Of a DNA stretch of 38,973 nt, positions 4,132-21,500 are shown piece by piece. The stretch lies in the NCBI GenBank assembly GCA_001778985.1, contig MFIU01000003.1, positions 1 to 38,973 of the forward strand, given 5' to 3'. How positions within the stretch are numbered: the first letter of the stretch is position 1; the number at the start of each line of letters is the position of its first letter. The stretch is from Candidatus Giovannonibacteria bacterium RIFOXYD1_FULL_48_21 (GTDB lineage Bacteria; Patescibacteriota; Minisyncoccia; JACPKW01; UBA11713). Position numbers and translations under genes: made by a program. A model generated the notes under the pieces. It did not search any database. It had not been told where the DNA came from and was given only the letters and a program-made list of their open reading frames with translations.

Positions 4132-4205
4132 TGGCGGGAGCGCCAGGATTCGAACCTGGATTACTGGTTTTGGAGACCAGAGTCCTGCCGTTGAACGACG
4201 CTCCC
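4132..4205 (-). tRNA. tRNA-Trp(CCA), CCA encoded
   Basis: Cloverleaf: acceptor GGGAGCG/CGCTCCC, anticodon arm CTGGT-CTCCAAA-ACCAG, T-loop TTCGAAT. Confidence 0.93.
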
Positions 4206-4445
4206 ACTTATTAACTCTTTTAATAATTTCCTTGCCTTTCCCCCACCCTTGAAATATTTTTCTCTGGCTTGAGCTCTTGCTTTTGTATCAAACTCTTCCT
4301 TATAAACCAAGTCGAGTGGCCTTCGATTCTTAGTTGAAATAACTAAACCTTCCTGATGTTGCATCAAGCGTAATTCAAGATTTCCAGTAAAACCAACATA
4401 CAATTTACCATCTTTCTTACTTTTCAGAACATAAACTGTAAACAT
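4161..4445 (-). CDS. GIY-YIG single-domain endonuclease (copy 1); 3' end reads into tRNA-Trp
   Basis: MFTVYVLKSKKDGKLYVGFTGNLELRLMQHQEG...STKNRRPLDLVYKEEF. Confidence 0.85.
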   Translation of the reverse strand: MFTVYVLKSKKDGKLYVGFTGNLELRLMQHQEGLVISTKNRRPLDLVYKEEFDTKARAQAREKYFKGGGKARKLLKELISGSVVQRQDSGLQNQ

Positions 4446-6517: not shown

Positions 6518-6531
6518 CGCGTGGGTGGCGG
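6518..6531 (+). repeat. 14-bp direct repeat (upstream copy of the tRNA-Tyr 5' end)
   Basis: CGCGTGGGTGGCGG, identical to 6832-6845. Confidence 0.9.
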
Positions 6532-6561
6532 CCAGCCCACGGCTGGTCGGCCTAGGGCCGA
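6532..6561 (+). repeat. Two abutting REP-like hairpins
   Basis: CCAGCC-CAC-GGCTGG then TCGGCC-TAG-GGCCGA. Confidence 0.85.
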
Positions 6562-6577
6562 AGTGGTTATAGTTGTT

Positions 6578-6829
6578 ATGTATTATGTGTATATTTTAAA
6601 GAGCGAGAAAACTGGTAAGCTCTATAAAGGGCTGACTAGTGATTTGAAGCGAAGATTAAATGAGCATAATAATAGAGAGGAAAAATCTACCAAAAATGGA
6701 GCTCCTTGGAAGTTAATTTACTATGAAGCCTTCAGTAATAAAACTGACGCAAGAAGAGAAGAATTATTTCTTAAGTCGGGAAAGGGGAAAGAAAGAATTA
6801 AATATTTACTTACCCAAACCTTAAGATAA
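6578..6829 (+). CDS. GIY-YIG single-domain endonuclease (copy 2)
   Basis: MYYVYILKSEKTGKLYKGLTSDLKRRLNEHNNREEKSTKNGAPWKLIYYEAF; the ATG at 6578 is preferred over the GTG at 6521. Confidence 0.87.
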   Translation: MYYVYILKSEKTGKLYKGLTSDLKRRLNEHNNREEKSTKNGAPWKLIYYEAFSNKTDARREELFLKSGKGKERIKYLLTQTLR

Positions 6830-6832
6830 ATC

Positions 6833-6917
6833 GCGTGGGTGGCGGAGTGGTCAATCGCACTTGGCTGTAAACCAAGCGCCCTAACGGGCTACGGGGGTTC
6901 GAATCCCTCCCCACGCA
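6833..6917 (+). tRNA. tRNA-Tyr(GUA)
   Basis: Class II tRNA: acceptor GCGTGGG/CCCACGC, anticodon arm CTTGG-CTGTAAA-CCAAG, long variable arm. Confidence 0.93.
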
Positions 6918-6933
6918 CTTTGTCTAGAAAATT

Positions 6934-20382: not shown

Positions 20383-20940
20383 ATGCTCCTTGGAAGGATA
20401 GCAATAGCCCTCCTTATCCTTTTTGAACTCCTAAACCTAGCGGGTATTTTGAAATTCACTCTGGATTTTTCGTGGCTCGGGCTTTTGGTAACTTCGGTCG
20501 GAAGTTTAATCGTCATCGAAGCCCTCGCCTTATCTCCCCTGCCTTATTTTTTGGCGGCGATCGGACTCTGGCTCGACGCCCTCGGCGACGTGGCGCATCT
20601 TTACGGAAGATTCGATTGGTATGACCAGTTCATGCATCTGGCGGGCGGCGGAATCGTGATGGCGGCTTCTCTCTCGCTTCTCAAAAAGCACGGACAGAAA
20701 TACGCTCTGCCGCTGATTCTGACAATCTTTTTGGCGCTGGGCTTTGTGGCGCTCTTCGGAGATTTTTACGAAATCGAAGAATATCTCGAAGACCGGCTTT
20801 ACCACGGCCGCCAAGTCCGCTTGGGTGGCGGCCCGGACACCGCCGATGATTTACTTTTTAATCTCGTCGGAGGAGTGGCGGTGGGGTTAGTCTATCTTTT
20901 TTCAAAAAAAATTTGGAGCCGGCGGTCAGATTCGAACTGA
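20383..20940 (+). CDS. Membrane protein, DUF2238-like
   Basis: YDQFMHLAGGGIVM; GDFYEIEEYLED...DTADDLLFNLVGG. Confidence 0.6.
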   Translation: MLLGRIAIALLILFELLNLAGILKFTLDFSWLGLLVTSVGSLIVIEALALSPLPYFLAAIGLWLDALGDVAHLYGRFDWYDQFMHLAGGGIVMAASLSLLKKHGQKYALPLILTIFLALGFVALFGDFYEIEEYLEDRLYHGRQVRLGGGPDTADDLLFNLVGGVAVGLVYLFSKKIWSRRSDSN

Positions 20941-20951
20941 CGACCTGTTTA
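20914..20951 (-). pseudogene. 3' half of an interrupted tRNA-Thr-like gene (CCA encoded)
   Basis: Minus strand TAAACAGGTCGTCAGTTCGAATCTGACCGCCGGCTCCA: T-arm GTCAG-TTCGAAT-CTGAC and 3' acceptor. Confidence 0.7.
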
Positions 20952-20969
20952 CCCCGTTAGAAATGTCGA
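20952..20969. repeat. Inverted-repeat arm (left) flanking the inner tRNA
   Basis: CCCCGTTAGAAATGTCGA; 17/18 match to the reverse complement of 21039-21056. Confidence 0.85.
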
Positions 20970-20971
20970 TG

Positions 20972-21043
20972 AGCCGACGGAGGGATTCGAACCCACGACC
21001 TACGGTTTACAAAACCGTTGCTCTACCACTGAGCTACGTCGGC
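20972..21043 (-). tRNA. tRNA-Thr(UGU), intact, nested
   Basis: Acceptor GCCGACG/CGTCGGC, anticodon arm ACGGT-TTTGTAA-ACCGT, T-loop TTCGAAT; CCA not encoded. Confidence 0.93.
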
Positions 21044-21056
21044 ATTTCTAACGGGG
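21039..21056. repeat. Inverted-repeat arm (right) flanking the inner tRNA
   Basis: TCGGCATTTCTAACGGGG. Confidence 0.85.
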
Positions 21057-21060
21057 CGGG

Positions 21061-21095
21061 CAAAACAACTGCTCTAGCCACTGAGCTATCCTGGC
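21061..21095 (-). pseudogene. 5' half of an interrupted tRNA-Thr-like gene
   Basis: Minus strand GCCAGGATAGCTCAGTGGCTAGAGCAGTTGTTTTG: acceptor-like start, D-arm, 5' anticodon stem and start of loop. Confidence 0.7.
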
Positions 21096-21500
21096 CTACC
21101 CTGGTTTATCTTTTGTCCCGTTTTTTCCGTTCTTTTTCGCTCCGTTTAGATTCTGCCAGTACTCGGACTTCTCGCCAACATCCAGATTTATATGCCGGCC
21201 CCGGATGTTATCCGCGAGCCATTTGAGGCGCGTTTCCAATTTCAAAACCAAAACGCGCACTTTAGTGACAAGCTTTTCCAAACCCCGCCAGAAAGCCGGC
21301 AGAATCACCTCGTAAAATTTCGTCTCCGCCGGATTATACCAGCGCTCTTTAAGCTCCCGGCGCACCGAAGACGAAGCCGACAATCTTTCCTGAAGCTGGA
21401 TGGCCGGCATTTTTTTTACCTCCCTGAAATATTTTCCGAAAAGAAAAACGGCTCCGGCGGCGGAAAAAACCAACAGCGCTAAATAGAAAATAAATGCCAT
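21096..21500 (-). CDS. Hypothetical membrane-anchored coiled-coil protein
   Basis: 134-aa ORF with N-terminal TM; stop abuts the interrupted tRNA. Confidence 0.6.
   Translation of the reverse strand: MAFIFYLALLVFSAAGAVFLFGKYFREVKKMPAIQLQERLSASSSVRRELKERWYNPAETKFYEVILPAFWRGLEKLVTKVRVLVLKLETRLKWLADNIRGRHINLDVGEKSEYWQNLNGAKKNGKNGTKDKPG

Follow-up and report, generated by a model that had tools for sequence, protein, structure and literature searches.

Short inverted-repeat elements are scattered in small genomes, among them MITEs, IS-derived palindromic repeats and Rickettsia palindromic elements. In the tRNA-dependent lysogeny of actinobacteriophages, the phage breaks an essential tRNA and brings along one of that isotype (PMC10865867). 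The SegB protein of phages T4 and T6 is a free-standing GIY-YIG homing endonuclease that is associated with tRNA genes in phages (PMC13096335). We found no description, in the open-access literature, of nested tRNAs or of an element such as the one analyzed here in CPR bacteria. The locus lies in a 38,973-nt stretch of a Candidatus Giovannonibacteria genome (the window, meaning the whole stretch analyzed), where a complete tRNA-Thr(UGU) inside the inverted arms CCCCGTTAGAAAT and ATTTCTAACGGGG splits the anticodon loop of a second tRNA-Thr. We consider it likely that a selfish cassette, consisting of the arms and one tRNA-Thr(UGU), inserted in an ancestral single-copy tRNA-Thr(UGU) gene and replaced it, and that its family is probably mobilized by GIY-YIG nucleases.

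The 182-nt locus reads from 21095 to 20914 on the minus strand, where we confirmed the sequence quoted by the first-pass annotation. The 5′ half of the outer gene (21061–21095, minus strand, as for all parts of the locus) runs to TTTTG of the anticodon loop and begins immediately past the stop codon of a conserved ORF (21096–21500, minus strand), which encodes 134 amino acids without a Pfam match and whose orthologues mark the ancestral tRNA-Thr(UGU) locus. It is followed by a 4-nt left junction, CCCG (21057–21060), the 5′ arm CCCCGTTAGAAAT (21044–21056), the inner tRNA (20971–21043), a 6-nt spacer, ATCGAC (20965–20970), the 3′ arm ATTTCTAACGGGG (20952–20964) and the 3′ half of the outer gene (20914–20951; TAAACAGG ... 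GGCTCCA). CCA is encoded by the outer gene and not by the inner one. The left junction is identical in genome G025, and is CGCG, TTCG or CTTG in other Thr nests. The cassette, at about 105 bp, has space for the tRNA and its arms only, and carries no integrase, att core or nuclease gene. The arms had been described as 18 bp with 17 pairs; these pairs are present, but the last 5 bp (GCCGA) reach the inner acceptor strand, and the repeat shared with other copies is a perfect 13 bp.

ARAGORN and Rfam called the inner tRNA-Thr(UGU) alone at the locus (76.6 bits), and no other intact gene with a UGU anticodon was found in the genome. The outer gene is identified by its position, which is orthologous to that of intact genes in relatives, and by its joined halves, which best match Thr-UGU. 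Joining these halves between TTTG and TAA, as the first-pass annotation proposed, does recreate a UGU loop. The resulting anticodon stem, however, lacks 3 nt of its 3′ strand compared to the intact orthologues and the inner copy. The suspected decay of the outer gene is also borne out by three mismatches in its acceptor stem. Consequently, the mismatches and the shortened anticodon stem indicate that the outer gene is no functional tRNA.

Orthologues of the neighboring ORF were found in 24 of 114 genomes (all genomes in this study are MAGs), and a tRNA-Thr(UGU) adjoins the ORF in all 24. In about 13 of them, including G002, G004 and G005 of the window's own family, this tRNA is uninterrupted, so that the intact outer form does exist at the same locus. 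The tRNA is nested as in the window in the window's own genome (G000), in G003 and in G025, while G036, G060 and G080 retain arm remnants. In the genomes G007, G086, G102, G104 and G105, tRNA-Thr is broken and one or both halves are left; a complete Thr-UGU adjoins or lies within them, and in some cases the inverted repeats are of a different kind. In four examples of this locus (L270, L274, L275 and L276), other inverted-repeat families, for example CCCGCCATTTA/TAAATGGCGGG, surround or precede a Thr-UGU that lies beside or inside a broken tRNA-Thr, in some cases in the D-arm, a case of convergent behavior.

The outer halves in G003 nearly equal the intact gene of G004, a member of the same family, the main differences being the insert and the loss of 3 nt: TTTTGTAAACCGTAGG in G004 corresponds in G003 to TTTTG-CGCGC, the cassette and G-TAAATAGG, with CCG lost. 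Because of this match and the uninterrupted orthologues at the locus, we regard the outer gene as the ancestral tRNA and the inner cassette as the insertion. The window's cassette and that of G025, which belongs to a different family, are the same at 101 of 103 bases, while their outer halves agree at only 23 of 31 and 23 of 37 positions. The two loci do agree in the bases adjoining the anticodon loop (TTTTGCCCGC / GTAAACAGGT). Such near-identity would fit a cassette that was transferred together with a few flanking bases.

The same genome contains further nests. Searching its 714 kb with the 182-nt locus recovered two similar loci, a tRNA-Thr(CGU) and a tRNA-Val(UAC), each in arms within another tRNA, and a fourth nest, tRNA-Pro(CGG), is located at C1:72192-72295. 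According to a tRNA census of the genome, the four inner tRNAs are all the sole copies of their anticodons. The arm CCCGTTAGAAAT, with at most one mismatch, occurs 80 times compared to 4 times for the reversed control, and its occurrences pair up as about 40 elements of 27–277 bp with varied interiors. As the nested layout is also present in dozens of genomes, the arrangement is not due to chance. At another locus (L057, 760–955), a tRNA-Glu(CUC) is followed by a decayed second tRNA-Glu that lacks its 5′ part.

The census initially lacked a tRNA-Asn, and this gene carries a true group I intron: at L074 (G000:C4:37500-38600, about 271–899), an intron occupies the tRNA-Asn anticodon loop, scores 83.5 bits and contains an ORF resembling an HNH nuclease. 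We had considered whether an outer gene could be the missing tRNA-Asn, since the outer gene of the L002 nest looked Asn-like; this was rejected, as the tRNA-Asn with its intron exists and Thr proved to be the nearest match of the L002 outer gene.

Arm pairs with interiors of 78–108 bp were found in 27 of 57 genomes, and arms with a tRNA T-loop between them in 39 of 387 genomes of the class, with no control matches. The latter pattern matched 103 stretches in named genomes, mostly of the Parcubacteria group (for example Giovannonibacteria, Portnoybacteria, Sungiibacteriota, Uhrbacteria and Kaiserbacteria). Several matches outside Patescibacteria had no detected inner tRNA, and Val cassettes were present on two short contigs, binned as Cloacimonadota (L193) and Planctomycetota (L205), which may be mis-binned. 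A search of viral contigs for the element gave no match. From these loci we extracted 203 distinct arm elements, 108 of them non-tRNA elements and 95 with an inner tRNA, the latter chosen for their exact 9-bp arms and, in most cases, for a T-loop motif as well. The 9-bp core arms are extended by one more complementary pair in 202 of the 203.

Each pair of joined outer halves, its anticodon loop masked, was aligned to 196 tRNAs that are not part of any cassette. The inner and the best-matching outer isotype agreed for 44 of the 48 strong cases, for 52 of 56 when the cut-off was lowered and for 75 of all 95. Flanks that form a tRNA when joined surround 36 of the 95 tRNA cassettes and 1 of the 108 non-tRNA elements. 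The inner and outer genes differ in condition: perfect 7-bp acceptor stems are present in all 95 inner tRNAs, in 31 of the 58 outer genes with a recognizable T-loop and in 2% of control pairs made from halves of different isotypes. The T-loop motif is missing from 37 of the 95 outer genes, and many lack either the T-loop or a half. We examined whether selection keeps the outer genes as functional tRNAs and rejected it on this mixed stem pairing, which fits genes that were once functional and are now decaying. Several nests are themselves nested, with a second, two-sided set of arms in a Leu (L132), a Val (L138) and an Arg (L199) example; a Pro example (L249) probably has three layers too.

The non-tRNA elements have exact 4-bp direct repeats beside their arms in 68 of 108 cases, versus a mean of 11 and a maximum of 20 after shuffling. 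The repeats are typically TTCA or TGAA, often at start codons. In G000 and its relatives, arm elements such as L016, L018, L020 and L094 often lie exactly at gene starts, with TGAA duplicated and RTGAA again forming the start codon after the element. At L027, L040 and L092, the 3′ end of the arm element (ACGGG) is also the 5′ end of a tRNA gene that starts with (C)GGG. A 4-bp target duplication accompanies only 1 of the 95 tRNA cassettes, which is not the window's, and therefore their insertion chemistry may differ from that of their non-tRNA siblings. Instead, the tRNA cassettes have recurring junction pairs, TTCA/CAAG in 14 cases and its reverse complement CTTG/TGAA in 11, at nests of different isotypes. 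This pattern suggests that cassettes and flanks were copied together, and did not follow the siblings' cut-and-duplicate route. Two known systems were also considered and set aside: by inspection, the arms (GTTAGAA...TTCTAAC) have the order opposite to that of an integron attC site, and insertion of the IS200/IS605 type is made less likely by the 4-bp direct repeats that flank non-tRNA copies.

The longer arm-bounded elements point to a candidate enzyme. Of those with at least 240 bp, 21 of 22 encode a GIY-YIG protein (Pfam). Two of about 275 bp in the window's genome, L053 (G000:C2:123972-124248) and L055 (210489-210763), encode nothing else, and the L053 ORF ends within its 3′ arm (..SLTG). 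Across 57 genomes, small arm elements averaged 8.8 in those with an arm-bounded GIY-YIG gene versus 1.5 in those without (p = 7e-5, in a correlation that ignores phylogeny). Among the GIY-YIG domains listed in the window's genome, 6 of 9 are followed within 60 bp by a tRNA on the same strand (binomial 4e-15), and there are several similar cases among the single best matches of other genomes. Two are in the window and are linked to the cassette by association only: one ORF (4161–4445, minus strand) runs into a tRNA-Trp (4132–4205, minus strand), and the other (6521–6829, plus strand) ends 3 bp before a tRNA-Tyr (6833–6918, plus strand). An arm-bounded GIY-YIG gene was not found in several cassette-bearing genomes, for example G025 and G003. 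Based on these associations, a GIY-YIG family probably mobilizes the arm elements.

A sequence of events consistent with these observations can be proposed. The cassette would be one member of a palindromic element family that is common in this class of Patescibacteria, with probable autonomous members in which the same arms surround a small GIY-YIG endonuclease gene. Homing would be the likeliest route: the nuclease would cut a naive cognate tRNA gene at its anticodon loop, and repair from a cassette-bearing copy, either on taken-up DNA or at another locus, would copy in the cassette and a few flanking bases, with repeated rounds producing nests inside nests. In the window, the insertion into the anticodon loop would have destroyed the ancestral tRNA-Thr(UGU), a loss presumably lethal to the cell were it not for the cargo, and the cell would have survived because the cassette brought a working tRNA of that isotype. 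The work would now fall to the inner gene, which could not be lost, leaving the outer halves to decay. Release of the inner tRNA could proceed by ordinary tRNA processing, and since 85 of the 95 inner tRNAs encode no CCA, it would presumably need both end processing and CCA addition.

This reading develops a proposal of the first-pass annotation, a palindromic element that inserts into tRNA-Thr with a replacement copy, which is strongly supported by the empty-site orthologues, the class-wide arms, the isotype agreement (44/48) and the sole intact Thr-UGU. The findings that would have spoken against it did not appear: uninterrupted outer forms exist, the arms match a class-wide family and the outer gene aligns to Thr-UGU. 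The annotation's other proposal, a nested pre-tRNA with non-canonical processing, is not supported at this locus. In such a mechanism, the cassette would be removed from the outer transcript like an intron or an RNase III-type intervening sequence, and both tRNAs would be functional. RNase III is known to remove intervening sequences from rRNA (PMC11270868), and in the predicted RNA fold of this strand the arms, together with the inner acceptor, form a single long helix that adjoins the outer loop (z = -3.3). Some outer genes elsewhere keep perfect stems, which counts for this mechanism and against a replaced gene. Moreover, some precise excision would yield a tRNA of the inner isotype in 34 of 95 cassettes, compared to about 19 expected with random reachable isotypes, an excess that is partly explained by left-over anticodon bases; many Ala cassettes reach the inner isotype by the same cut, and in some Ala nests one cut would restore a CGC anticodon. 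However, none of 169 excisions of the window's cassette gives a tRNA-Thr (ARAGORN), the Thr nests that were read lack 3 nt of the outer anticodon stem, and many outer genes have lost the T-loop or a half. Rfam reports only tRNAs in the window, with no group I or II intron core at the nested locus, whereas the tRNA-Asn intron of the same genome is clearly group I. RNA-level rescue of the outer gene is thus disfavored in the window, less so in some Ala nests, and we consider this explanation very improbable.

The main serious alternative to a replacement by homing concerns its targeting step only, and the remainder of the explanation would stand without that step. Elements could insert anywhere, with survivorship retaining, among those in tRNA genes, only the ones that carry the right tRNA, and with no same-isotype homing. 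The non-tRNA copies do look like ordinary insertions with 4-bp duplications, and other inverted-repeat families also hold a Thr-UGU at tRNA-Thr loci, some in the D-arm. Yet nearly all recognizable tRNA cassettes are inside tRNAs of the same isotype, rather than at the intergenic or start-codon sites of their siblings, and the junction bases, which are specific to the isotype, accompany the cassette; untargeted transposition is therefore unlikely in our view, although it carries real weight. Palindromes are known to promote template switching, and the common isotype of inner and outer genes, like the tandem tRNA-Glu with its decayed second copy, could be produced locally by template switching or tandem duplication at a tRNA beside a palindrome, with no mobile cassette. 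A local origin is very improbable, as the same arm was found, in 39 of 387 genomes, around tRNAs of many isotypes and a near-identical cassette in two families, within divergent outer genes, argues for transfer. Palindromes can also yield chimeric assemblies, but the same structure with conserved junctions recurs in assemblies from many projects, which makes the chance of an artefact negligible.

If replacement by a mobile cassette is right, bacteria whose genomes are among the smallest are losing essential single-copy tRNA genes to selfish elements of about 100 bp, which become irreplaceable on arrival. Such elements would rank with the smallest known ones that ensure their own retention by substituting for what they destroy, and would provide both a route for horizontal tRNA replacement and a concrete candidate function for many GIY-YIG genes of Patescibacteria. 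They would also account for decayed tRNA halves overlooked by annotation tools, and the nests would be a natural experiment on the processing of a tRNA that lies within the transcript of another. We judge the balance to be even for a broader claim, that these hairpin-plus-tRNA homing cassettes are an undescribed class of Patescibacteria element, driven in trans by arm-bounded GIY-YIG genes, which repeatedly invades cognate tRNA genes, becomes indispensable by replacement and supplies part of the minor-codon tRNA set.

Each of the known systems shares part of this behavior. Like MITEs and IS-derived repeats, the elements have terminal inverted repeats, and their non-tRNA copies have 4-bp direct repeats; unlike them, the cassettes carry complete, apparently functional tRNA genes, and the long siblings (21/22) code for GIY-YIG proteins, with no transposase found inside the arms. 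Group I introns insert in the same region, the tRNA anticodon loop, as in the tRNA-Asn of this genome, but they are ribozymes, whereas the nested cassette has no ribozyme and the outer tRNA is not restored. Insertions are known in other essential, usually single-copy RNA genes of the same bacteria, some of them with GIY-YIG genes and matching no intron class; the main text that describes them does not include tRNA, and the cassettes replace the host RNA gene rather than repair it. As with SegB, small GIY-YIG nuclease genes are statistically associated with tRNA genes, although SegB is a phage gene that is not described with inverted arms or nested tRNAs (PMC13096335), and the link between GIY-YIG genes and mobility in our case is one that we infer. 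By functional analogy, tRNA-dependent lysogeny appears to be the closest precedent. It employs a whole phage with a tyrosine integrase and an att core, whereas the cassettes are about 105 bp, have no integrase, insert mostly in the anticodon loop and nest recursively. In both, the element carries the isotype that it disrupts (here in 44 of 48 clear cases, with the empty site found), and the cassettes would thus be a miniature analogue of such a phage.
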